Assembly: GCA_035540975.1 (NCBI GenBank)
Contig: DATLFN010000038.1
Location: 1-48,320, forward strand
From: Acidimicrobiales bacterium
GTDB taxonomy: Bacteria > Actinomycetota > Acidimicrobiia > Acidimicrobiales > GCA-2861595
DNA: 48,320 nt
Direction: 5' to 3'
This document shows, piece after piece, positions 6,007-48,320 of this stretch (the stretch's first letter is position 1; each line of letters begins with the position of its first letter). The notes beneath the pieces were generated by a model. It made no database searches. It saw only the letters and a list, made by a program, of their open reading frames with translations, and was not told the DNA's origin. Made by a program: the position numbers and the translations under genes.

Positions 6007-7013
6007 GCCGCGCCGGCGGACGCGGCGTCACACCACCACGCCAGCTCGTCGTCGGGGCCCAGTGCCTTCTCCCAGCCGAACTGGACGACCGCTCCCAGGA
6101 GGCACAGACCCAGCTGGCGGTCCCACCACGACCCGGTCTCCACGCCGTGGCGCTCGAGGGCACGGCGGAAGGCGCCGGCGGCGGCCTCCTTCGAGACCGG
6201 CAGTCGGGACCGGTCGAGGGCGAGGTGCCAGGCCAGCTCGTGGCAGGCCGGGCCCTCGCCGACGTAGGCCCAGTCGATCAGCACGGTGCGGCCGTCGGGG
6301 GCGACGCCGGTGTTCGACGCCTTGACGTCACCGTGCAGGAAGCACGACGGCGTCTCGCGCAGCGCGTCGGCCAACGGCGCGGCGTCGTGGCGGAGGTCGT
6401 CGACGAGGCGGACGAGAGGGGCGGGCGCCCGGTCGGCGAAGCGCTGCCATCCCTCGGCCGCCAGGCGGGGCACCCGCTCGGGCCAGCCGAGCGCCCGCTC
6501 GCCGTCGACGGCGGCGTGCCCGAACCAGGCCCACCGGGCCGCGTACGGCAGCAGGCCCGGACCGGACCCGGGGTCGTCCCGCCAGCCCCAGGTGGCAGCG
6601 CAGAACCCGGCCAGATGGTCGAGGAAGGCGGCGTGCCGCTCCAGGCCGATCGGCTCGTCCCCGGGTGGGAACAGCTCGCCCGAGACGTCGCGCATCAGCA
6701 CCGCTGCGCCCCACCCGTTCCGGCCGTGCCCGGCCGCCGCACCGACGATGGCGTGGTCGACGAGGTCGGGTGCGGCGTCGAGGAGGCCGGCCGCCCAGGC
6801 GCGGACCGTGCGGCAGCCGAGATCGCCCGACACGCGCAGCGCGAAGTCCTGGTCCGGGTGGACGTACTTCACGACGTGGGGCGAGCCGGCGATCCACACC
6901 CTCTCGAAGGCGGCCGACGAGCGGCCGTCGGGATTGACGAACGGCTCACGCCGCTCGGCGCCGGCCAGGAGCTCGTCGACCGATCGGGCCGGGACCCGCA
7001 CGTCAACCACCAT
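5997..7013 (-). CDS. Aminoglycoside phosphotransferase-like kinase (APH family)
   Basis: The 338-aa protein has the Brenner-type catalytic loop HGDVKASN (His near residue 227) and, about 15 residues on, the metal-binding LIDWAYVG, the hallmarks of the APH/choline kinase fold. The N-lobe contains VVKYVHPDQDF with a candidate ATP-lysine. The substrate is unknown; drug, sugar, choline or homoserine kinases all share this fold. The ATG at 7013 (MVVDVRV) was preferred over an upstream in-frame start that would overlap far into the previous gene. It overlaps the upstream SnoaL-like gene by 11 nt and the downstream methyltransferase by 10 nt, so the three are one operon. Confidence 0.88.
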   Translation of the reverse strand: MVVDVRVPARSVDELLAGAERREPFVNPDGRSSAAFERVWIAGSPHVVKYVHPDQDFALRVSGDLGCRTVRAWAAGLLDAAPDLVDHAIVGAAAGHGRNGWGAAVLMRDVSGELFPPGDEPIGLERHAAFLDHLAGFCAATWGWRDDPGSGPGLLPYAARWAWFGHAAVDGERALGWPERVPRLAAEGWQRFADRAPAPLVRLVDDLRHDAAPLADALRETPSCFLHGDVKASNTGVAPDGRTVLIDWAYVGEGPACHELAWHLALDRSRLPVSKEAAAGAFRRALERHGVETGSWWDRQLGLCLLGAVVQFGWEKALGPDDELAWWCDAASAGAAWL

Positions 7014-34708: not shown

Positions 34709-37342
34709 ATGGCTCTCGTCTTCGCGTTCGACCACAAGCACCGCACCTCCCCCATGGGCCTGAAGGACCTCCTCGGGGGCAAGGGGGCGAACCTGGCCGA
34801 GATGACCTCGGTGCTCGAGCTGCCCGTTCCCCCCGGCTTCACCATCACCACCGACGCCTGCCGGGCCTACATGGACGGGGGCTGGCCGGACGGCCTCACC
34901 GGCGAGGTCGAGAAGCAGGTCAAGCGGCTGCAGAAGGCGATGGGGAAGAAGCTGGGCGACCCCGAGGACCCGCTGCTGGTGAGCGTGCGATCGGGGGCGA
35001 AGTTCTCCATGCCCGGCATGATGGACACCGTCCTCAACCTGGGGCTGAACGACGAGTCCGTGGAGGGCCTGGCCGTCCAGACCGACGAGCGCTTCGCCTA
35101 CGACTCGTACCGCCGTTTCGTGGCGATGTACGGCCGCATCGTCCAGGGCATCGAGGGGTCCGAGTTCGACTCGCTGCTCGACGCCGCCAAGGAGGCGGAC
35201 GGCGTCACCGCCGACTCCGAGATCACGCCCGGCACCCTGCGCAAGCTCGTCGAGCAGGAGAAGGACGTCGTCGTCCGCCACACCGGCAAGCCGTTCCCGC
35301 AGGCCCCCGCCGAGCAGCTCCGGGGCGCCATCGAGGCGGTCTTCGCCTCGTGGAACGGGCCGCGTGCGGTGGCCTACCGGGTGCGCGAGCGGATCGCCCA
35401 CGACCTGGGCACGGCCGTGAACGTGCAGGCCATGGTCTTCGGCAACCGGGACGACAACTCGGGCACGGGCGTGGGCTTCACCCGCGACCCCGCCACCGGC
35501 GAGGCCGGCGCCTACGGCGACTTCCTGGTCAACGCCCAGGGCGAGGACGTGGTGGCGGGCATCCGCAACACCGAGCCCCTGTCGGCCATGAAGACCCGCT
35601 TCCCCGAGATCCACAAGGAGCTGCTCGGGATCTTCGAGCGCCTCGAGGCGCACTACCGCGACATGTGCGACACGGAGTTCACCATCGAGCAGGGCAGGCT
35701 GTGGATGCTCCAGACCCGGGTGGGCAAGCGCACCGGTCGGGCCGCCCTGCGCATGGCCGTCGACATGACCAAGGGCCGCAAGTGGAGGATCACCCGCGAG
35801 GAGGCGCTCCTGCGGGTCACGGCCGAGCACCTGGACCAGGTGCTCCATCCTCAGTTCTCGGGCAAGGACATGACGGTCATCGCCAAGGGCCTGGCCGCCT
35901 CTCCCGGCGCGGCCGTCGGCAGGGCCTACTTCACGGCCGACGACGCGGCGGCGGCCGGCGAGCGGGGTGAGCGGGTGATCCTCGTGCGCACGGAGACGTC
36001 GCCCGAGGACGTCCACGGCATGATCGCCGCCCAGGGCATACTCACCTCGCGCGGCGGCCTGGTGAGCCACGCCGCCGTGGTGGCCCGGGGCTGGGGGAAG
36101 CCCGCCGTCGTGGGCGCCGAGTCGGTGCGGATCAAGGGGAAGTCCTTCAGCGCGGGCGCCGTCACCGTGAACGAGGGCGACGTCATCGCCGTCGACGGCA
36201 CCAGCGGCGTCGTCGTGCTGGGCGAGGTCGAGCTGTCGATGGGCGAGCCCCCCAAGGAGTTCGCCACGATCCTGGGCTGGGCCGACAAGGTCCGCAAGGG
36301 CAGGATGGCGGTGCGGGCCAACGCCGACAACGGCCCGGACGCCGCCAACGCCCGGAACTTCGGCGCCGAGGGCATCGGCCTGTGCCGGACGGAGCACATG
36401 TTCCTCGGCGACGACCGGCTCCCGGTCGTGCGGGCCATGATCATGGCCGACACGCCCGACGAGGAAGCGGCCGCCCTGGAGAAGCTGCTGGCCGTCCAGC
36501 GGGCCGACTTCGAGGAGATCCTCGAGGCCATGGACGGGCTCCCCGTGACCGTGCGCCTGCTCGACCCCCCGCTGCACGAGTTCCTGCCGTCGACCGAGGA
36601 GATGGCCGTCAAGAAGGCGACCGAGGGGCTGAGCGAGGAGGAGGAGCAGCTCTACGCGGCGGCCAAGCACTGGGAGGAGTTCAACCCGATGCTGGGCACC
36701 CGGGGCGTCCGCCTCGGCGTGCTCAAGCCGGGGCTGTACGCCATGCAGGTGCGCGCCCTGATGGAGGCGGCCGCGGCCCGGGCCGCCGCCAAGGGCAAGC
36801 CGGTCGTCGAGATCATGATCCCGCTCACGGTCACCCGCCAGGAGCTGGGCCTCGCCCGCCAGTGGGTGGAGGAGGCGGTCGCCGCCGCCACCGCCGGCGT
36901 CAGGCGGCCCATCGCCGTGTCGATCGGCACCATGGTGGAGACGCCCCGGGCCGCTCTGCGGGCCGACGAGCTGGCCGAGGAGGCGGACTTCTTCTCGTTC
37001 GGCACCAACGACCTCACCCAGATGGTGTTCGGGTTCAGCCGGGACGACATCGAGGGCCGCATGATGAGCACGTACCTGGAGCAGGGGCTGCTCAAGCGCA
37101 ACCCGTTCGAGACGATCGATCCGGGTGGCGTCGGCGAGCTGGTGAAGATCGCCGCCGAGCGGGGCCGGGCCGCCAAGCCCGGGCTCAAGCTGGGCGTCTG
37201 CGGCGAGCACGGCGGCGACCCCGAGTCGATCGCCCTGTTCGCCGAGGCGGGGCTGGACTACGTCAGCTGCTCGCCGTTCCGGGTGCCCATCGCCCGCCTG
37301 GCCTCCGCCCAGGCGATCCTGCGCTCCGCCGGGGTCGCCTGA
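34709..37342 (+). CDS. ppdK: Pyruvate, phosphate dikinase
   Basis: The 877-aa enzyme has the nucleotide-binding domain GGKGANLAEM through FSMPGMMDTVLNLGLNDESV. The phosphohistidine domain is GILTSRGGLVSHAAVVARGW, with the swivelling His near residue 454. The TIM-barrel PEP/pyruvate domain carries GLCRTEHMF, LGTRGVRLG, SFGTNDLTQMVFGFSRDD and the catalytic Cys in GVCGEHGGDPESI (about 830). It interconverts pyruvate + ATP + Pi and PEP + AMP + PPi, serving glycolysis or gluconeogenesis. Length is normal (870-890). It lies between glyS and dnaG with its own leaderless promoter. Confidence 0.97.
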   Translation: MALVFAFDHKHRTSPMGLKDLLGGKGANLAEMTSVLELPVPPGFTITTDACRAYMDGGWPDGLTGEVEKQVKRLQKAMGKKLGDPEDPLLVSVRSGAKFSMPGMMDTVLNLGLNDESVEGLAVQTDERFAYDSYRRFVAMYGRIVQGIEGSEFDSLLDAAKEADGVTADSEITPGTLRKLVEQEKDVVVRHTGKPFPQAPAEQLRGAIEAVFASWNGPRAVAYRVRERIAHDLGTAVNVQAMVFGNRDDNSGTGVGFTRDPATGEAGAYGDFLVNAQGEDVVAGIRNTEPLSAMKTRFPEIHKELLGIFERLEAHYRDMCDTEFTIEQGRLWMLQTRVGKRTGRAALRMAVDMTKGRKWRITREEALLRVTAEHLDQVLHPQFSGKDMTVIAKGLAASPGAAVGRAYFTADDAAAAGERGERVILVRTETSPEDVHGMIAAQGILTSRGGLVSHAAVVARGWGKPAVVGAESVRIKGKSFSAGAVTVNEGDVIAVDGTSGVVVLGEVELSMGEPPKEFATILGWADKVRKGRMAVRANADNGPDAANARNFGAEGIGLCRTEHMFLGDDRLPVVRAMIMADTPDEEAAALEKLLAVQRADFEEILEAMDGLPVTVRLLDPPLHEFLPSTEEMAVKKATEGLSEEEEQLYAAAKHWEEFNPMLGTRGVRLGVLKPGLYAMQVRALMEAAAARAAAKGKPVVEIMIPLTVTRQELGLARQWVEEAVAAATAGVRRPIAVSIGTMVETPRAALRADELAEEADFFSFGTNDLTQMVFGFSRDDIEGRMMSTYLEQGLLKRNPFETIDPGGVGELVKIAAERGRAAKPGLKLGVCGEHGGDPESIALFAEAGLDYVSCSPFRVPIARLASAQAILRSAGVA

Positions 37343-37400
37343 GCGGGACCCACCGCCTGAGCACCGCCGGGCCCCGGCGGTGGCGCGTGGGCCGAAGCGG

Positions 37401-37406
37401 TACCGT
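37401..37406 (+). promoter_or_regulatory. -10 box of leaderless dnaG-rpoD operon
   Basis: TACCGT, 7 nt before GTG 37414. Confidence 0.55.
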
Positions 37407-37413
37407 CCTCGGC

Positions 37414-39159
37414 GTGGGCATCGTCGAGGAGGACGTCGCCCGTGTGCGGGCCGCCACGGACTTCGTCGAGGTGGCGTCCGAGCACCTGGCCCTCAAGCGG
37501 GTGGGGCGCCGGTGGGTCGGCCTGTGCCCGTTCCACGCCGAGAAGACCGCCTCGTTCTCGATCAACGCCGAGCTCGGGCTCTACCACTGCTTCGGCTGCC
37601 AGGCCAAGGGCGACGTGATCACCTTCGTCCGCGAGGTGGAGCACCTCGACTTCGTCGAGGCGGTGGAGCGGCTGGCGGCCAAGGCCGGCATCGAGCTGCG
37701 CTACGACGAGGCCCGCGAGGGCAGGGGCCGCCAGCGCCGCACCCGGCTGATCGAGGCCGTCGAGGCAGCGGCCGAGTGGTACCACCAGCGCCTGCTGACG
37801 GCCGCCGACGCCGCCCCGGCCCGGGCCTACCTGCGCTCGCGCGGCTACGACGGCGACGTCGTACGGGCCTTCCGCCTGGGGTGGGCGCCGACGGACTGGG
37901 ACGCGTTGGCCCGGGCACTGCGTCTCCCCGACGACGTGCTGCGCGACACCGGGCTCGGCATCGTCAACCGGCGAGGCCGCCAGCAGGACAACTTCCGGGG
38001 CCGGGTGATGTTCCCGATCTTCGACGCCGCCGGCAAGGCGGTGGCGTTCGGGGGCCGGGCCCTGCCGGGCGCCGACGGGCCGAAGTACAAGAACTCCCCG
38101 GAGACCCCGCTGTACTCCAAGAGCCGTACGCTCTACGGCCTCAACTGGGCCAAGAGCGAGGTGGTGAGCACGGGCGAGGTCGTCGTGTGCGAGGGCTACA
38201 CCGACGTGATCGGGTTGGCGGCCGTGGGCGTGCACCGCGCCGTCGCCACGTGCGGCACCGCCCTGGCCGACGAGCACTTCCGGATGCTCAAGAACTTCGC
38301 CCGCCGCATCGTGCTCGCCTACGACGCCGATGCCGCCGGCCAGGCCGCCGCCGAGCGCTTCTACGACTGGGAGCGCCGCTACGAGATCGACCTGTTCGTG
38401 GCCGCCCTGCCCTCCGGCTCCGATCCCGGGGAGCTGGCCCGTCGGGACCCAGACCGGCTCACGGCGGCCGTCACGGAGGCCGAGCCGTTCCTCCGCTTCC
38501 GCGTCGAGCGGGTGCTGGGAGCGGCCGACCTGCGCTCGCCCGAGGGACGGGCGCGAGCGGCCGAGGCCGCCATGGCGGCCATCAGCGAGCACCCCAGCGA
38601 CCTCGTGCGCGACCAGTACCTGATGGAGGTCGCCGACCGCTGCCGGATCGACGCCGAGCGCCTGCGGCGAGGGGTGGGGCCCCACGGCCGGGCCGCCCGC
38701 CGGCCGGCGGCCACGGCGACGCCTCGGCGGGACTCCGGCGGCCCCGAGCTCGAGGCGCTGCGCCTGGCCGTCCACCGGCGCGACGAGGTCGTCGGCCGCC
38801 TGCACCCGGCGCTCTTCGCCGACGAGCGCCACGGCGCCGTGTTCGAGACGATCGCCCGGGCGCCCACCGTCCACGACGCCATCGCCGCCGCCGACCCGGG
38901 TACCGCCGACCTGCTCCAGCGCCTGGCCGTGGAGGAGGCGACGGCTGACGTGGACGACGTGCTGTCGCAGCTCCTCCGGCGGGCCGTGGCGCGGGCTGTC
39001 TCCACCTTGGAGGCCGACGCCCGTGCCGCGCCGGAGCAGGCGCTGGCCCTGTCCGCCGCCGTCGGCTGGCTGAAGGTCACGGTCGAGGACCTCCCCGATC
39101 CTGACGCGGCCGACCGGTTGGTAGATTGGCTGGTGCGCTGGTCCGAGGAGGGGGGGTGA
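37414..39159 (+). CDS. dnaG: DNA primase DnaG
   Basis: The 581-aa primase has an N-terminal CHC2 zinc ribbon (Cys38, His41, Cys59, Cys62 in GLCPFHAEK and [11 protein letters not shown]). The RNA-polymerase domain includes [20 protein letters not shown] and [20 protein letters not shown], and the Toprim core is [12 protein letters not shown] and [13 protein letters not shown]-type sequence. A C-terminal helicase-interaction helical region follows after an Arg/Pro linker (~440). It synthesises replication primers. GTG 37414 is set by the leaderless -10 box. Its stop overlaps rpoD (GTGA), giving the macromolecular-synthesis operon order without rpsU. Confidence 0.96.
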
Positions 39160-40505
39160 CCTACCCCGTGCCGGAGGGCGTCCCCGAGGAGGCGTTCTCC
39201 CGGTTGCTCGACACCGGTCGCCGGCGCGGCAGCGTGAACGCCGACGACCTGATGACGGTGCTCGACGGCGTGGAGCTGAGCGCCGACCTCATCAACTCGG
39301 TCGTGGCCCGCGTCCGCGCCGAGGGCATCCACTACGACGACGCCGAGGACGTGTTCGTCACCGCCGACGAGCCGGTCGAGGACGACCTGGCGCCGGTCGA
39401 CCTGGTCGACCCCGACGCGACCGCCCCGGGGGGCCTGGTCGACGAACCCGTGGTGGAGGTGCTCGCACCCTCGGCACCCGCCCGGCCCGCGCCCCCCGGT
39501 CGCCCCCCGGCGGCGGCGCCGGCCGGCGCCGCGCCTGCGCCCGAGTTCTCCGAGGCGGAGGGCGTGGGCGGGATCGGCGAGGACCCGGTCCGCATGTACC
39601 TCAAGGAGATCGGCAAGGTCCCGCTGCTGACGGCGGCCCAGGAGGTGTTCCTGGCCCAGCGCATCGAACGCGGCCTGCACGCCGCCGAGCAGCTCACCGA
39701 GCTCGAACGGGAGTACGGGGGGCGCCACCTCGTCCCCACCGACCTGCGGCGGCCGCTCGAGCGGGCGGAGGGCGACGGCCGGGTCGCCACCCAGCAGCTC
39801 ATCAACGCCAACCTGCGGCTGGTCGTGTCCATCGCCAAGCGCTACCGGAACCGGGGGATGCTGTTCCTCGACCTGATCCAGGAGGGCAACCTCGGGCTGA
39901 TGCGGGCGGTCGACAAGTTCGACTACACCAAGGGCTTCAAGTTCTCCACCTACGCCACGTGGTGGATCCGCCAGGCCATCACCCGGGCCATCGCCGATCA
40001 GGCCCGGACCATCCGCATCCCGGTGCACATGGTGGAGACCATCAACAAGGTCGGGCGCATCCAGCGCCAGCTCGTGCAGGAGAACGGCCGCGAACCCACG
40101 CTCGAGGAGCTGTCGGCCCGGGCGGAGATGTCGCCCGCCCGGGTCCGCGAGGTCCTGCGCATCGGCCAGGACACCGTGTCGCTCGAGCAGCCCATGGGCG
40201 ACGAGGACTTCAGCCTGGGCGACGTCATCGAGGACCAGTCGGCCATCGTGCCCGCCGACGCCGCGGCCAAGGCGATGCTGATCGAGGCGGTCAAGCAGGC
40301 CCTGGCCGAGCTGTCCGATCGCGAGCAGCTGGTGGTGCGGCTGCGCTTCGGGCTCGACGACGGGCAGGTGCGCACCCTGGAGGAGGTCGGCAGGGAGTTC
40401 GGCGTGACCCGCGAGCGGATCCGCCAGATCGAGTCGAAGGTGCTGGCCAAGCTGCGCCACCCCATCCGCAGCCAGCGCCTCCGCGACTACCTCGACGAGG
40501 AGTAG
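39156..40505 (+). CDS. rpoD: Primary RNA polymerase sigma factor
   Basis: The 449-aa sigma-70 protein has a region 1.1-like start ([20 protein letters not shown]) and an acidic/Pro-Ala linker. Region 1.2 is [20 protein letters not shown]. Regions 2.1-2.4 include [40 protein letters not shown] and [15 protein letters not shown]. Region 3 is present, and region 4.2 is [20 protein letters not shown]. Region 2.4 is that of a housekeeping sigma factor. GTG 39156 overlaps the dnaG stop and follows a purine-rich gaggaggggggg site, so it is translationally coupled. It presumably reads the TANNNT promoters seen throughout this window. Confidence 0.95.
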
Positions 40506-40535: not shown

Positions 40536-40811
40536 CTACACCGCCGGTGGCTCGGTGCGGAAGTAGGGATCGGTCGTCGTCGGTGCCGACGGCTCGGCCC
40601 CGTTGGTGCGGGCCGAGTCGATCAGGTCGGTGGCCTTGTCCACGCCGGCGTCCACCACCTCGCGCGCCCGCTCGGTGGCGACCTCGTACGCCTCCGACCG
40701 CTTCAGCTTGCGGATGGCCGAGTTGATCTGCTCGTAGCGCTCCCGGCCGGCCATGGAGCCGAGGTAGTAGCCGGAGGTGAAGCCGATGGCCAGTCCCAGT
40801 CGGAATCTCAT
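40536..40811 (-). CDS. Small YtxH-like membrane-associated protein
   Basis: The 91-aa protein has an N-terminal Gly-rich hydrophobic segment (RLGLAIGFTSGYYLGSMAGR) followed by a charged helix (RERYEQINSAIRKLKRSEAY, EVATERAREVVDAGVDKATD) and a polar tail. This is the plan of YtxH-like stress-related membrane proteins and of short actinobacterial hypotheticals beginning MRFRLGLAIGF. The function is unknown. It is convergent with rpoD, 30 nt apart. Confidence 0.8.
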   Translation of the reverse strand: MRFRLGLAIGFTSGYYLGSMAGRERYEQINSAIRKLKRSEAYEVATERAREVVDAGVDKATDLIDSARTNGAEPSAPTTTDPYFRTEPPAV

Positions 40812-42287: not shown

Positions 42288-42348
42288 CACCTCCGTGGCC
42301 GTCGGGCATTCGCCGAGCGCAGCAGGGACGTCTGTGCGGGTCCCGGAA

Positions 42349-42367
42349 CGAAGGGAGCAGCCCTTCG
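42349..42367 (+). terminator. Hairpin between propeller and molybdoenzyme genes
   Basis: cgaaggg-agcag-cccttcg is a perfect 7-bp stem just before the preferred start of the molybdoenzyme gene and 62 bp after the propeller stop. It lacks a U tract and may be a weak terminator, a processing site or a translational control hairpin. Confidence 0.4.
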
Positions 42368-42384
42368 GTGAGTTGGAGCACGTC

Positions 42385-44865
42385 GTGACCGGAGCACCGA
42401 CGGCGGCGGAGGTGGCGACGTACTGCCCGTTGTGCGTCTCGCGGTGCGGCGCACGAGCGACCGTGGCGAACGGGACCTTCACGCTCGGCCGAGACCCGTC
42501 CCACCCGACCGGGAAGGCGCTGTGCGTCAAGGGAAAGGCGGCGCCCGAGATCACCGCCCATCCCGACCGGCTGCGGTACCCGATGAAGCGCACGGCACCC
42601 AGGGGCGCGCCGGACCCGGGCTGGCAGCGGATCACCTGGGACGAGGCGCTGGACACGGTCGCCGAGCGGCTGCGCGGGCTGGCCCGTGACCACGGCCCCG
42701 AGTCGGTCGTGTTCAGCTCGGTGTCGCCGTCGACCTCGGCGATCGTCGACTGCGTCGACTGGATCCAGCGGCTCCAGCGCGCCTATGGAAGCCCGAACCT
42801 CGTCACCTCGATGGAGCTGTGCGGCTGGGGACGCTACCTCGCCTCGCTCTACACCTACGGAGCGTCGGTACCCGGCGAGTACATGCCCGACCTCGACCGG
42901 GCCGGGTGCATCCTGTTCTGGGGCTACAACCCCGTCGTGTCGCGGTTGGCCCACGCCACCGCGACCAGGGCGGCTCTGCGCCGGGGAGCGAAGCTCGTCG
43001 TCGTCGACCCACGGCGGGCCGGCCTGGCCGCCAAGGCGGATCCTTGGCTGCGCGTACGCCCCGGCACCGACGCCGCCCTGGCGTTGGCGATCACCAACGT
43101 GATGATCGAGCGGGGCTGGTACGACGAGCCGTTCGTCCGCCGCTGGACCAACGGCCCACTCCTGGTCCGGACCGACACGGGGCGTCTGCTCCGCGCCGGC
43201 GACCTCGCTACCGCCGGCGACCCGGGCCACCACGTCGCCTGGGACGAGGTCGCGGGGCAGCCGGTCGTCCTCGACCCGACCGCGCGCGGCTCGGACGTGG
43301 ACGACCACAGCCGTCTGGCGTGCACCGGGACCATCGAGGTCCCGACCGTCGACGGAGCGGTGGCCTGCCGGCCGGCGTTCGACCTGGTGGCCGAGGAGTG
43401 CCGGAGCGTGTCGCCGGCGGTCGCCGAGGAGGTCACCGGCGTCCCCGCCGCGGACATCGAGCGCACCGCCCGGATGCTGTGGGAGCACCGCCCCGTGGCG
43501 TTCTACACCTGGAGCGGCCTGGAGCAGCACAGCGGGACGACCCAGATCATCCGAGCGGTGAACCTGCTCTACGCGCTGACCGGGTGCCTCGACGTGCCCG
43601 GCGGCAACGTCCTCTTCACGCCCGTACCGACGAAGCCGGTCGCCGGTTCAGAACTGCTCGACCCGTCGCAGCGAGCCAAGGCGATCGGCGTGGGCGACCG
43701 CCCCCTCGGGCCGGCCCGGTTCGAGTTCGTCACCGGCGAGGACTTCTACACCGCGGCGCTGGACGGCCGCCCCTACCGGGCCCGCGGACTGGTGAGCTTC
43801 GGCTCGAACCTGCTCCTGGCCCACGGCGACAGCGCGCGCGGGCGTGAGGCGCTCCGGGCGCTCGAGTTCCACGTGCACCTCGACCTGTTCCCGACCCCGA
43901 CCGCCGAATCGGCCGACATCGTCCTTCCGGTGACCGCCGCCTTCGAGGCCGAGGGCCTGAAGGTCGGCTTCGAGGTCTCGCAGGAGGCCCAGTCGCTGGT
44001 GCAGTTGCGCGCCCCGCTCGTCGCGCCCGTGGGCGAGGCCCGCTCCGACATCGAGATCATCTTCGACCTGGCCACCCGGCTCGGCCTCGGCGAGCAGTTC
44101 TTCGACGGCGACGTCGAAGCGGGGTTGGCGCACCACCTGGAGCCGAGCGGGGTGTCGCTGCGGCAGTTGCGCGACGACCCGGCGGGGGTCCGCCTGCCGC
44201 TCGAGACCCGCCACCGGAAGTACGCCGTCGCCGATGAGGACGGCGTACCGGCGGGGTTCGACACGCCGACGGGGCGGATCGAGCTGTACGTCGAGGACTT
44301 CCTCGAGGTCGCCCAGCCGCCCGTCCCCACCTTCACGGAGCCCCTCCTGAGCCCCCGGTCGCGCCCCGACCTCGCCGGTGAGTTCCCACTCGTGCTCACC
44401 TGCGCGAAGGCGTTGCCCTTCTGCGAGACCCAACACCGCCAGGTCGCCGCCCTGCGTCGCCACGCGCCCGACCCCCAGGTCGAGTTGCACCCCGACACCG
44501 CCGACCGGCGGGGCATCGCCGAGGGCGACTGGGTCGAGATCGCGACGCCGAGGGGGAGCGTCCGTGCCCGCGCCAGGCTGAACGACACGCTCGCGGCCGG
44601 CGTCGTGTGCGGCCAGCACGGCTGGTTCGAACCGTGCGAGGAACTGGGGCTCCCTGGTCATCCGCCGTTCGGTCCCGGCAGTGCCAACCTCAACCTGGTG
44701 CTCAGCCAGACGCCGAGCGACCCGATCAGCGGCAGCTCGCCCCTCCGGGCCCAGGTCTGCGAGGTCAAGCGCCTGACCGGGGATCAGGCACCACCTGGTG
44801 AGGGTGGCGACGGGCGGGTCAGCGTCCCCAGCCGCACAGGTGCCCCAGCTCCCGCAATCCGTTGA
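42385..44865 (+). CDS. Molybdopterin oxidoreductase, DMSO-reductase family
   Basis: The 826-aa protein has an N-terminal 4Fe-4S site (Cys14, 17, 21, 47; YCPLCVSRCG and GKALCVKG), then the MGD-binding domains. The expected metal-ligand position reads SMELCGWGRYLAS, i.e. Cys146, as in formate dehydrogenase-like, Nap and polysulfide/thiosulfate reductase enzymes. The C-terminal dinucleotide-binding domain includes LTCAKALPFCETQHRQVAAL and GDWVEIATPRGSVRARARLN. The substrate is unknown. There is no twin-arginine signal, FeS subunit or membrane subunit nearby, so it looks cytoplasmic and orphan. GTG 42385 was chosen (ggag upstream, after the hairpin); GTG 42295 or TTG 42373 are alternatives. An IS21 element lies 37 bp downstream. 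Confidence 0.9.
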   Translation: MTGAPTAAEVATYCPLCVSRCGARATVANGTFTLGRDPSHPTGKALCVKGKAAPEITAHPDRLRYPMKRTAPRGAPDPGWQRITWDEALDTVAERLRGLARDHGPESVVFSSVSPSTSAIVDCVDWIQRLQRAYGSPNLVTSMELCGWGRYLASLYTYGASVPGEYMPDLDRAGCILFWGYNPVVSRLAHATATRAALRRGAKLVVVDPRRAGLAAKADPWLRVRPGTDAALALAITNVMIERGWYDEPFVRRWTNGPLLVRTDTGRLLRAGDLATAGDPGHHVAWDEVAGQPVVLDPTARGSDVDDHSRLACTGTIEVPTVDGAVACRPAFDLVAEECRSVSPAVAEEVTGVPAADIERTARMLWEHRPVAFYTWSGLEQHSGTTQIIRAVNLLYALTGCLDVPGGNVLFTPVPTKPVAGSELLDPSQRAKAIGVGDRPLGPARFEFVTGEDFYTAALDGRPYRARGLVSFGSNLLLAHGDSARGREALRALEFHVHLDLFPTPTAESADIVLPVTAAFEAEGLKVGFEVSQEAQSLVQLRAPLVAPVGEARSDIEIIFDLATRLGLGEQFFDGDVEAGLAHHLEPSGVSLRQLRDDPAGVRLPLETRHRKYAVADEDGVPAGFDTPTGRIELYVEDFLEVAQPPVPTFTEPLLSPRSRPDLAGEFPLVLTCAKALPFCETQHRQVAALRRHAPDPQVELHPDTADRRGIAEGDWVEIATPRGSVRARARLNDTLAAGVVCGQHGWFEPCEELGLPGHPPFGPGSANLNLVLSQTPSDPISGSSPLRAQVCEVKRLTGDQAPPGEGGDGRVSVPSRTGAPAPAIR

Positions 44866-44902: not shown

Positions 44903-44993
44903 TGTCGGCGGCCATGAGAACCTGACCGGAGACGGCCAAAGAACTGAACGCTGGCGGCCACGAGAACTGCGCGGTGGCGGCCACCAGATCTGC
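44903..44993 (+). repeat. Left IS21 end with tandem IstA-type repeats
   Basis: Units of the form ggcggccaNgagaac begin near 44907, 44931 (degenerate, gacggccaaagaac) and 44953; the innermost, ggcggccaccagatctgc (44976-44993), is matched exactly by the right end. Confidence 0.85.
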
Positions 44994-45090
44994 TTTTCCG
45001 ATTGACCGTTGCTCCGGTGGGTCCACCACCTGAGCGCTCCTCCCCGGTGTGCTGAGCGTGCTCAAGCACCCAGCCACCGAGGAGGAGCAC

Positions 45091-46574
45091 GTGAAGTCTG
45101 ACGAGGAGATCATGGAGATTCTTGAAGCGTTCGACCTGACCCGCAGTTTCCGGGATGCCGGCGAGCTCGCCGCCTGCTCACCCAACACCGTCGCCCACTG
45201 GGTGGCGGCCCGCGATACCGGCGCCCTGGACGTGCCGGCACGGCGTGACCACCTGATCGACCCGTTCCTGGCCAAGGTCGAGGAGTGGGTGGAGGCGTCC
45301 AACGCCAAGATCCGCGCCGACATCGCCCACGACAGTTGGTGGCCCTCGGCTACACCGGATCGGAGCGCACCACCCGCCGTGCGGTGGCCGCAGCCAAGAA
45401 GGCCCACATCGCCGGGCACCGGCGCATCTACCGGCCGTGGGTGCCCGAGCCGGGCATGTGGTTCCAGTTCGACTACGGCGACGGCCCGGTGGTGGCCGGG
45501 AGGCGCACGTGGCTGTTCTGCGCCTGGCTGTCGTGGTCGAGGTTCCGGGTGGTGATCCCCATCCTCGACAAGACGCTTCCGAGCGTCATCGCCTGCATCG
45601 ACGCCGCCCTGCGCCGCTTCGGCGGGGTGCCCACCTACGCATTGACCGATAACGAAAAGACGGTGACGACCGCCCACGTGGCCCGCATCCCCATCCGCAA
45701 CCCCGAGATGGTCTCCGCTGCCCGCCACTACGGCCTGACGGTCGCCACCTGCGTGGTGGCCGACCCCGAGTCCAAGGGCGGCTCGGAGGCGACGGTGCGC
45801 ATCGCCAAGGCCGATCTGGTGCCGACCGAGGCCAACCTGTTGCCCGCCTACCCGAGCTTCGCCGCCATGGAGCAGGCGTGCGAGGCGTTCTGCCACGACG
45901 TCAACGACCGGGTCCACCGCTCGACCCGCCGGGTTCCCGCCGAAATGGTGGCCGAGGAGCGCCGCCGGCTCCATCGCCTGCCCACGACGCCCTACACCGC
46001 CACCTTCGGGGTGACCCGCACCGTCGGGATCACCACTCCGGTGATCGCCCACGAAGGCGGTGAGTACTCGGTGCCGCACCGCCTGCGCGGCGAGGTGGTG
46101 TGGGTCCGGGCCCACGGCGACGACATCGTGGTCACCCACGTGGGACCGGCCGGCGCCGTCGAGGTGGCCCGCCACGAACGGACCACGCCCGGCAACCCCC
46201 GTCACGTCGATGAGCACTTCGGGCCGACACCGGAGGGGCCGCTCAACCGCACCCCCAGGGCAAGAAGTGCTGCGGAGGCTGCGTTCCTGGCCATCGGGGC
46301 GGGGGCATCGTTGTGGCTCACCGAGGCGGGTGCTGCCGGGGTGGCCCGGCCCCGGCCGAAGATGGCCGACGCCGTTGCTCTCGCCGCCCTGCACGGCACC
46401 GAGGCGGTGGACTGGGCCCTCGGCCATGCCGCGGTCATGGGCCGCTTCGCCGAGAGCGACCTGGCGGCGATCATCGCCCACCACGCCGCCGCCGGCCCCG
46501 GCGACGTGCTGCGAGCAGGCGAGGACCACACCCTCCAGCCCGGCACCTCCGCCTGGGAAGGCTTCGGGAGATGA
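45091..46574 (+). pseudogene. istA: istA transposase, frameshifted
   Basis: GTG 45091 follows gaggaggagc and begins VKSDEEIMEILEAFDLTRSF, with an HTH (GELAACSPNTVAHWVAARD). Near 45334 the frame breaks: gcccacgacagttggtggcc lacks one base relative to the expected HD-K-LVALG, and the +1 frame continues LVALGYTGSERTTRRAVAAA to the stop at 46574. The DDE residues lie after the break: Asp in FQFDYGDG, Asp in ALTDNEKT and Glu in KGGSEATVR. Otherwise about 495 aa would be intact, so the lesion is recent or a sequence error. Confidence 0.88.
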
Positions 46575-46780
46575 CGGCGCCGGCGCGCTTCGACGATCAG
46601 CTCCTCGCCGCCGAGCTGGCCGACCTGCTCGACTTCGTGGCCGACTTCCTGGCCAAGGCCGAGGGTCCGCTCCTGCGGATGGACTTCGCCGACTTCACCT
46701 CCAGTGGCTATGACCTCGACGAGCTGCGCGCTGCTCTGCGCCGCTTCGCCGGCTGGCTCGCCGGCGAGGGTTTCGCATGA
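46571..46780 (+). CDS. Small IS21 accessory protein (69 aa)
   Basis: This gene starts at ATG 46571, overlapping the istA stop (ATGA), and its stop overlaps the istB start (ATGA), so it is part of the transposon operon. The acidic, leucine-rich product (LLAAELADLLDFVADFLAKA, DLDELRAALRRFAGWLAGEG) is probably helical. I know of no assigned function; two-gene IS21 elements lack it. A partner of IstA or IstB is plausible. Confidence 0.75.
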   Translation: MTAPARFDDQLLAAELADLLDFVADFLAKAEGPLLRMDFADFTSSGYDLDELRAALRRFAGWLAGEGFA

Positions 46781-47550
46781 GGACGCCGGAGCCGCCGCCG
46801 TTGGCCGACGACCTCGAGGCGTTGTTGCGCCGCCTGCGCCTGCCGCACATCCGACGCGCTGCCCCCGAGGTCATCGCCACCGCCCGGGCGCAACGCTGGG
46901 AACCAGCCGAGGTGCTCAAGGTCCTCTTCGGCGAGGAGCTGGCCGGAAGGGAGCGCTCCTCGCTCGCCACCCGGCGGGCGGCCGCCACCTTTCCGACCGG
47001 AAAGACCTTCGAGGCGTGGGAGCCGGCGGCGTCGTCCATTCCCGCCCCGACCCAGTCCGCCCTTCGCACCCTGGAGTGGGTCCGCCGGCGGGAGAACCTG
47101 GTGGTGTGCGGGCCGTCCGGCACGGGCAAGACGATGTTCCTCGAGGCGCTGGGGCAGCTGGCCGTCGAGGCCGGCATGAAAGTGGCCTGGTTCGCCCTGG
47201 AGGACCTCGGCGCCCTGGTGCGCCGCCACCGGGCCGACGACACCGTCACCCGGGCCGTGGCCCGCATCCTGCGCTCGGAGATGGTCGTGGTTGACGACAT
47301 AGGACTCTTGCCGGTGAGTCCCGACGCGGCCGAGGGTCTCTACCGCCTGGTCGATGCCGCCTACGAGAAGCGCAGCGTGGCTGTCAGCTCCAACCTGCAC
47401 CCCTCAGGCTTCGACGAGCTGATGCCCAAGACCCTCGCCGGCGCCACGGTCGACCGGCTCCTGCACCACGCCCACGTCTGCGTCACCACCGGCGACAGCG
47501 TGCGCCTTCAGCAGGCCACGACCGGCAAGGGGGTGGTGCCTCTCGGATGA
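46777..47550 (+). CDS. istB: IstB-like ATP-binding transposition helper
   Basis: The 257-aa AAA+ protein has a helical N-domain (LADDLEALLRRLRLPHIRRA), Walker A VCGPSGTGKTMFLEALGQLA, Walker B EMVVVDDIGLLPVS, and sensor-like VAVSSNLHPSGFDELMPKTL with a closing VDRLLHHAHV arginine-finger region. IstB delivers target DNA to the IstA transposase, as MuB/DnaC-like ATPases do. The reading frame is intact. Length is normal for the family. Confidence 0.93.
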   Translation: MRTPEPPPLADDLEALLRRLRLPHIRRAAPEVIATARAQRWEPAEVLKVLFGEELAGRERSSLATRRAAATFPTGKTFEAWEPAASSIPAPTQSALRTLEWVRRRENLVVCGPSGTGKTMFLEALGQLAVEAGMKVAWFALEDLGALVRRHRADDTVTRAVARILRSEMVVVDDIGLLPVSPDAAEGLYRLVDAAYEKRSVAVSSNLHPSGFDELMPKTLAGATVDRLLHHAHVCVTTGDSVRLQQATTGKGVVPLG

Positions 47551-47556
47551 GCACGC

Positions 47557-47648
47557 GCAGATCTGGTGGCCGCCAGCGCGCGGTTCTCATGGCCGCCAGC
47601 GCGCGGTTCTCCTGTCCGCCTCCGCGCGGGTTCTCGTGGCCATTGACA
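47557..47648 (-). repeat. Right IS21 end with tandem IstA-type repeats
   Basis: Read in reverse, the terminal unit tggccacgagaac, then ggcggacaggagaac, ggcggccatgagaac and the innermost ggcggccaccagatctgc follow at about 23-bp intervals, mirroring the left end. Confidence 0.85.
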
Positions 47649-47654: not shown

Positions 47655-47848
47655 AGCCACGACGCGCAGCAGGGAGCGCTCCCAGCGAGGGATGAGATCG
47701 CCCGAGATGGCCTATCGTGGCTTCCGTGACCTTCCGCATGGCATCTTCCGGCTCGTGAGAGGGCCGAACGCCATCCTCTGTGGCACCGCTGGGCAAGCGT
47801 TCGGAGCGGCGCCGATGCGGTAAACCCGCAGGTCACAGGCCGGTTCCT

Positions 47849-47886
47849 TCCGGGGTAGCTCAATTGGCAGAGCATCTGACTGTTAA
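47849..47886 (+). pseudogene. 5' half of tRNA-Asn(GTT)
   Basis: tccgggg-ta-gctc-aattggca-gagc-a-tctga-ctGTTaa gives a correct acceptor 5' strand, D arm, anticodon 5' strand and a full anticodon loop with GTT (Asn). The expected 3' anticodon strand tcaga, T-arm and ccccgga acceptor are absent, and none occurs before the window ends at 48320. The break falls exactly at the end of the anticodon loop, a classic tyrosine-integrase crossover point. This should not yield a working tRNA unless a 3' part is supplied in an unknown way. Confidence 0.8.
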
Positions 47887-48010
47887 GCGAAAAGCCGTAA
47901 ACGGTGTGCTGACCTGCGGTTTTGCCTCAAAATCGGGTCCGAAATCGGCTCAGTTATCCGCTGTAACGGGGTCTGTCAGCGGCGTTTACGGCGGCCTGAT
48001 TCCCGCTAGC
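47887..48010. other. Palindrome-rich, less GC-rich segment: putative attachment-site region
   Basis: Several inverted repeats interlock here: gccgtaaacg (47894-47903) with cgtttacggc (47983-47992); tgacctgcgg (47910-47919) with ccgcaggtca (47826-47835) on the other side of the tRNA half; and ccgctg (47958-47963) with cagcgg (47977-47982). A gtaaac core occurs three times (47820, 47896 and inverted at 47984). This resembles integrase arm sites at a tRNA-borne att site. The base composition is distinctly less GC-rich than the surroundings. No gene is convincing from 47655 to 48183; a 38-codon frame at 47707-47823 is probably chance. Confidence 0.4.
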
Positions 48011-48112
48011 CCGGGGGGACGGGCGCCGGCCAGGGCGGTCAAGGCCGGCCGTCAGGCCGCCCGCAGGGGAAGCCTTGACGGCCCGGTGTCCGGCCCGCCG
48101 GCACACTGGGAG

Positions 48113-48134
48113 AGGAAGCCCGCCAGGGCTTCCT
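48113..48134. terminator. Hairpin aggaagccc-N4-gggcttcct
   Basis: A perfect 9-bp stem with a 4-nt loop lies about 50 bp before the toxin-like gene. It has no U tract. It may terminate read-through or control the next gene; gtcaaggc (48038) / gccttgac (48072) forms a second, weaker dyad just upstream. Confidence 0.45.
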
Positions 48135-48183
48135 GGTCGCCCCTGCCGGTCCGGCGTCGCGTCGAAGGAGCGCTCAGCTGACG

Positions 48184-48320
48184 GTGGACCGGCCGGCGGT
48201 CCGGAGGCGCTGGCGCTTCTACCGCACCGCCGGCGGCTCGACGCCGGTGCGTGACTTCCTCACGGGCGCCACCCTCCCCACCGACGACCGAGACGAGATC
48301 CTCGCCGCCATGAAGGACGT
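48184..48320 (+). CDS. Phage-derived Gp49-like / RelE-type toxin, 5' part only
   Basis: GTG 48184 follows gaaggag by 13 nt and opens VDRPAVRRRWRFYRTAGGST, then PVRDFLTGATLPTDDRDEIL and AAMKDV, running off the window end. W.FYR...G..PV..FL followed by a helix with D...I..AMK is the start of the Gp49-like (HigB/RelE superfamily) mRNA-interferase toxins. The partner antitoxin would usually lie immediately downstream, outside the window. Its position next to a disrupted tRNA fits a mobile-island cargo or stabilisation module. Confidence 0.75.
   Translation, partial: MDRPAVRRRWRFYRTAGGSTPVRDFLTGATLPTDDRDEILAAMKD

Follow-up and report, generated by a model that had tools for sequence, protein, structure and literature searches.

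The right-hand end of the window (the whole stretch of 48,320 nucleotides analyzed here) is interpreted as the native tRNA-Asn locus of this bacterium into which related, putatively mobilizable elements have integrated site-specifically at least twice, a reading to which we assign a probability of about 0.85. Judged from sequence comparison, a tRNA-Asn 5' half lies there in a predicted attP-like junction, flanked on one side by what is left of a decayed element and on the other by the left end of a later one. The observations that carry this reading are the homology of the two flanks, the native locus, elements with two recognizable ends in G002 and three further cases, and mixed tRNA polarity across the integrase clade.

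The tRNA-Asn half and its chromosomal setting

The 38-bp sequence TCCGGGGTAGCTCAATTGGCAGAGCATCTGACTGTTAA is the 5' half of tRNA-Asn(GTT) and matches the corresponding half of an intact tRNA-Asn at 38 of 38 positions in G002, an Actinomycetes metagenome-assembled genome (public record JAHFUS01); an earlier note had recognized this half, ending at ctGTTaa, correctly. Its last seven bases, CTGTTAA, are the anticodon loop, which is the predicted crossover zone. Neither ARAGORN nor Rfam called a tRNA at this position. The genome to which the window belongs (G000) comprises 3.45 Mb in 171 contigs and is 96.9% complete. A whole-assembly search allowing up to 3 mismatches found the 5' half in a single copy. 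The 3' half, which the earlier note had suggested seeking, was not found in the assembled genome with two search patterns, and no tRNA-Asn was present among the 43 tRNAs with identified anticodons (covariance-model search and ARAGORN). Since the Leu-CAG, Ser-GGA, and Ala-TGC tRNAs are missing from the assembly too, an assembly gap is sufficient to explain this, and the intact tRNA-Asn may simply lie inside one.

In G001 and G005, dnaG-rpoD is followed within about 1 kb by an intact tRNA-Asn, and the same gene pair is present in the window (Table 1). These relatives, a comparison that the earlier note had called for, place the half at the native tRNA-Asn locus, with element DNA on both its left and right sides; that on the left had gone unnoticed in the earlier note. 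The molybdopterin oxidoreductase gene between rpoD and the element remnant probably either came in as cargo with the first element or was moved up to it by a deletion. A supporting parallel is found in G003, in which dnaG-rpoD lies upstream of a similar integrase remnant and a tRNA-Asn 5' half at a contig end. This contig (L072; C92, position 7719) ends exactly at the last base of the half, as would be expected if the sampled population contained both an occupied and an empty site, each with its own continuation of the half. To the right of the half in the window, the lower GC content remarked on earlier is real (58% at positions 47887 to 48006, against 74% for the whole window), and this segment belongs to the lowest 0.2% of 120-bp stretches.

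Table 1. Features of the window around the tRNA-Asn half; assignments to a first and a second element are predictions
Feature	Position	Strand	Evidence or remark
dnaG-type primase frame, then rpoD (primary sigma factor); chromosomal anchor	36382-40505	+	rpoD, Pfam sigma-70 regions; dnaG, translation
Small gene adjoining rpoD	40536-40811	-	Homologous stretch (L070, 6255-6563) directly before the chromosomal tRNA-Asn half of G002 (at 6587)
Molybdopterin oxidoreductase	42295-44865	+	Pfam Molybdopterin
IS21-type insertion inside the integrase remnant	44903-47648	+	TGTC...GACA ends; 6-bp target duplication ACGACG
istA-like gene of the IS21-type insertion	45285-46574		
istB of the IS21-type insertion	46777-47550		
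Broken, frame-shifted integrase start, first element (start codon 47739-47737)	47655-47739	-	Translation; DNA alignment with G002
R-end (integrase end) of first element, from integrase start to tRNA half	47740-47848		Aligned to the R-ends of G002 and G003
Arm repeat CCGCAGGTCA, R side	47826-47835	+	
tRNA-Asn(GTT) 5' half	47849-47886	+	
L-end (left end) of second element	47887-48183		84% to G002 L-end
Conserved far-end arm CCGCAGGTCAGCACACCGTT, reverse complement here	47900-47919	-	Exact in G002
G+C-rich inverted repeat, arms 92% complementary	48033-48084		Related copies at four other G000 contig ends
Start of Gp49 (RelE/HigB-like) toxin gene, second element, cut by contig end	48184-48320	+	Homologous to a G002 gene called Gp49 by Pfam

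A two-ended relative and the predicted double junction

Of six genomes of the family, G002 contains the same tRNA-Asn half followed by the same right flank. At a distance of 8.5 kb it also has, in the same orientation, an intact tRNA-Asn that is preceded by DNA resembling the left flank of the window. Between them lie a Gp49-type toxin gene with an HTH gene, a methyltransferase gene, a MOBF relaxase-helicase gene, and a gene for a 304-residue tyrosine integrase with a Pfam Phage_integrase match. The relaxase-helicase is of the MobF/TrwC type; this is the one element whose main reading frames were scanned. The duplicated block is 38 bp long and consists of the tRNA-Asn 5' half including the anticodon loop. 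The element thus splits tRNA-Asn in the loop and the gene is restored at the integrase end, where the identity block lies about 112 bp from the start of the integrase gene, which itself stays intact. The order of 5' half, left end, integrase end, 5' half, and 3' half indicates that the element carries the 5' half; the chromosomal 5' half is the stub at the left end, and the element's own copy completes the tRNA. The earlier note had considered an element of this uncommon polarity whose end meets the tRNA in the anticodon loop; both points are borne out by the G002 element.

The right flank of the window is 84% identical to the G002 left end over 500 bp that include the half and the toxin start; the HTH gene comes next in G002, and the Gp49-like toxin noticed previously is corroborated by this homology. 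The left flank shows 79% DNA identity over 226 bp to the G002 integrase end, and its integrase start, read backwards from position 47739, is MRKVTEATIGHL... compared with MAQVTDATIGHL... in G002. Because the two flanks match opposite ends of the G002 element, they indicate a double junction. The island edge proposed earlier was therefore right in that an element ends at the tRNA, but two elements meet there and the edge is not a simple one. The recombinase gene thought worth seeking is represented by the broken integrase start left of the half.

Such a junction could arise as follows. A compact Xer-like tyrosine recombinase would exchange strands at the anticodon loop, acting on an attP made up of the integrase-end arm, an identity block that copies the tRNA 5' half, the loop, and the left-end arm. 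Integration would join the chromosomal 5' half to the left end of the element, leaving a stub, and would supply the chromosomal 3' half with the 5' half borne by the element, restoring the tRNA beside the integrase gene. The first element would have restored tRNA-Asn in this way and then decayed to its integrase end, with the integrase broken and an IS21-type insertion inside it. The second would have inserted into the restored tRNA, leaving the 5' half between integrase end 1 and left end 2. By this account, the working tRNA-Asn should be found where this second element ends, past the contig end, and would be transcribed from element DNA. The contig terminates at position 48320, so that 434 bp of the second element are visible, and the assembled G000 contains no close relative of the integrase (best, 31% identity) or the relaxase (40%); for these reasons, neither the far end nor a working tRNA-Asn was seen. 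Also in favor of the reading, the tRNA-Arg(ACG) site is empty in G000 and filled in G003.

Four other explanations were weighed. The one that survives best, unlikely as it is, regards the right side as a dead fragment too, with no second element left. The decay of the left element and the lack of an integrase for the second one in G000 agree with a complete relic, but the left end and toxin start are well preserved (84%), with a long near-identical stretch. Somewhat less likely still is the attP of a single excised, circular element, since the order of integrase end, 5' half, and left end is exactly that of attP and would be found in a circle as well; against this, the left flank runs on through the integrase remnant, the IS21-type insertion with its target duplication, and the molybdopterin gene to rpoD-dnaG, and the left-side integrase copy is broken. 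Moreover, G000 contig ends share overlaps of exactly 141 bp, from which an assembly k-mer of 141 can be deduced, and a 141-mer assembly implies that the left chromosomal flank was joined to the left end through the half in one molecule. The same k-mer, far longer than the 38-bp repeat, makes it very unlikely that integrase-end and left-end junctions were fused by misassembly, even though the half is repeated in all att sites and the genome is in 171 contigs. The weakest reading, hardly credible and rejected here, is a truly interrupted or split tRNA-Asn with an anticodon-loop intron or trans-joined halves, an option raised in the earlier note that has become unnecessary: the break is exactly at the loop and a 97% complete assembly has no intact tRNA-Asn, but the 3' half is nowhere in it, relatives have an intact tRNA-Asn, an element end that includes a toxin gene follows downstream, Rfam gave no match, and three other tRNAs are missing as well.

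The sole match in a plasmid collection was the tRNA-Asn of Arthrobacter, and an exact-pattern scan of GTDB contigs for the junction found none. A scan of IMG/VR with the integrase yielded distant relatives only (best, 30% identity over the full length) and hence no sign of a phage.

Arm repeats at the element ends

The nested inverted repeats described in the earlier note do exist, but only the GCAGGTCA pair is conserved. It belongs to a 20-nucleotide inverted repeat (47816 to 47835 and 47910 to 47929; 85%) that spans the tRNA half and contains CCGCAGGTCA and TGACCTGCGG. Related elements have its GCAGGTCA arms too: when a single mismatch is allowed, the TGACCTGC/GCAGGTCA core is present in 21 of 42 integrase-side arms, against ~2 expected (about 1 in 20 in shuffled sequences). 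The left-end arm CCGCAGGTCAGCACACCGTT also occurs in three 3'-type elements as an 18-base core with one mismatch, and the exact 18-base arm signature, searched in 395 genomes, was confined to its own family (3 genomes). In the main palindrome, two element arm repeats face each other as an inverted pair; they presumably bind the integrase or an excision factor. In G003, a tRNA-Thr 3' half is bordered by a near-identical left end, and the 51-bp partner of that half adjoins an integrase on another contig.

The inverted repeat at 47894 to 47903 and 47983 to 47992 and the "gtaaac" cores, to which the earlier note had drawn attention, are not conserved in the G002 left end, where GTAAAC is GTTAAC or lost; an integron attC reading of these cores was rejected on this account. 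No Rfam RNA matched the palindrome array up to E = 5.

Other sequences in G000 carry arms of this kind. A degenerate tRNA-Ile(GAT)-like sequence (L055; C131, 9060 to 9123), rejected by ARAGORN, is flanked by two GCAGGTCA-type arms and has an integrase-like gene close by; it is possibly another att scar of the same element family. A second integrase remnant, with similarity to the N terminus only (L116; C19, 2350 to 2484; 51% over residues 9 to 53), lies beside a GCAGGTCA arm. In addition, the G+C-rich hairpin of ~56 bp in the left end (48032 to 48088) has 95% relatives within a repeat that ends four G000 contigs (C92 end, C88 end, C25 start, and C18 end; L009 to L012). These contigs form two pairs sharing exactly 141 bp, next to GTCGACTGATGTGGAACGGCTTGTCAAG; the repeat is perhaps the end of another repeated element.

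The integrase clade and its tRNA polarity

The G002 integrase is XerC/XerD-like, with XerD as its best solved relative. Pfam recognized in it a SAM-like core-binding domain and a catalytic domain only, from residue 16 on, and no arm-binding domain of the lambda type. Relatives at E <= 1e-50, here termed the clade, are present in 19 of 395 genomes of the class and in 28 of 396 of the phylum, and also in Chloroflexota and Actinomadura. Among 48 tRNAs adjoining the start of a clade integrase, 25 face it with their 5' end and 23 with their 3' end; the 25 include four near-identical Chloroflexota/Limnocylindrales copies and two Actinomadura copies, one of which (L088) was deduced from a contig starting with a tRNA-Ala half. 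This contig has no terminal overlap, and a circular form is unsupported. Adjacency is a proxy for polarity only, and both element ends were therefore sought. They were found on one contig for four 5'-type elements (duplicated halves of tRNA-Asn in G002, 38 bp; tRNA-Met in G083, 40 bp; tRNA-Met at L080, 40 bp at 97.5%; and tRNA-Arg in G534, 39 bp) and seven 3'-type elements (tRNA-Thr in G089, L084, and G472; tRNA-Met in G007, G623, and G633; and tRNA-Val in G599). In all of these, an intact tRNA and the matching fragment occupy opposite ends; the integrase side holds the identity block, which extends into the anticodon loop or beyond it. The window itself displays the middle junction only.

By adjacency, tRNAs Thr-CGT, Thr-TGT, Val-TAC, Ala-TGC, Pro-TGG, Asn, and Met are used in both polarities, and for Met this is proven by two-ended elements. 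A tree of 35 integrases requires at least four polarity changes, and its well-supported branches force at least three per label, many deep branches being unresolved. In the Islander survey, 3760 islands had left a 3' fragment, against 159 with a 5' one (~4% of 3919; PMC4383910). Compared with these numbers, 25 of 48 gives a Fisher P value of ~1e-21 when relatedness is ignored, and the two-ended set alone (4 of 11) gives ~7e-4. The use of both polarities by one integrase clade is the notable point, the carriage of a 5' half being known but rare; a literature search with partial coverage found no report of a bacterial integrase clade with both polarities.

The Asn element is similar to the tRNA islands of the Islander survey in several ways: crossover is in the anticodon loop, the identity block is part of the tRNA, a restored tRNA and a fragment mark the two ends, tandem arrays are known (PMC4383910), and a tyrosine integrase lies beside attP in G002, with the broken start of the same gene in the window. 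It differs in carrying the 5' half, as about half of its clade does, whereas the usual though not obligatory part is the 3' one; since ~4% of Islander islands share the 5' polarity, this marks a variant and not an exclusion. The archaeal pTN3-like integrases are described as unique among archaea in using the tRNA 5' half (PMC8371274, PMC5495485), and a similar situation is said to be seldom met in bacteria (PMC8371274). As in the Asn element, their attB is a tRNA 5' half, ~41 bp are shared, and the restored tRNA is parted from its original promoter. However, their attP lies inside the integrase gene, whereas the window's clade is bacterial, with Xer-like integrases of 300 residues, a gene unsplit by integration (intact in G002), and both polarities. 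AICEs (PMC3218068) are likewise found in Actinomycetota, with tyrosine integrases, tRNA targets, and known tandem integrations, but the great majority of AICEs that have a tyrosine integrase integrate at the tRNA 3' end (PMC3218068), in contrast to the 5' half and MOBF relaxase-helicase of the G002 element. In tRNA-dependent lysogeny (PMC10865867), too, whatever is broken by integration into a tRNA gene has to be provided by the element. In that system, the broken tRNA stays broken and a complete phage tRNA takes its place, while here the tRNA is rebuilt from the element-borne 5' half.

With near-symmetric stems on either side of a 7-bp spacer, the anticodon stem-loop is laid out like a simple recombinase core (PMC8371274). 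A recombinase guided mainly by the symmetric stem could bring attP and attB together regardless of which tRNA half the element has taken up. We consider it an evenly balanced proposal that this Xer-like clade of Actinomycetota and Chloroflexota takes the anticodon stem-loop as an orientation-free target, adopts either half of many tRNAs, and has switched polarity several times, with the 5'-carried end unlosable and kept as a scar where further elements pile up, the window being one such case. If the orientation-free reading is true, the host tRNA of a 5'-type element comes under element DNA, so that this end cannot be lost. A recombinant bacterial tRNA gene keeps its own promoter with very few exceptions (PMC8371274, citing Williams 2002), but an element that carries the 5' half cuts the host tRNA off from its own upstream control DNA. 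In 5'-type elements, the restored tRNA is downstream of element DNA, mostly 55 to 140 bp from the divergent integrase gene, a geometry that would allow promoter capture. A scan of integrase ends for sigma-70-like promoters gave similar values for the two polarities (mean z, 0.18 for 5' and 0.15 for 3'). Since sister elements use the same tRNAs in opposite ways, how an integrase chooses its tRNA polarity becomes testable, as do the expression and selection of an essential tRNA once a mobile element owns its upstream DNA. In practice, such loci will be overlooked or misinterpreted by island finders that look for 3' fragments, and likewise in tRNA inventories made from draft genomes.

Three further loci of the clade depart from the simple arrangement. 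In G203 (C2; L170), a clade integrase is flanked by two copies, 13 kb apart, of a 143-bp stretch that holds an entire tRNA-Val(TAC) with its upstream DNA; this case was left out of the two-ended counts for both types. In G437 (C150, 20335 to 22409; L190/L210), two divergent clade integrases lie within 2.1 kb beside one tRNA-Ala(TGC). In the 3'-type element of G633 (C30; L225), the integrase-side copy of tRNA-Met is a lone 3' half without a 5' half, the mirror image of the structure in the window.
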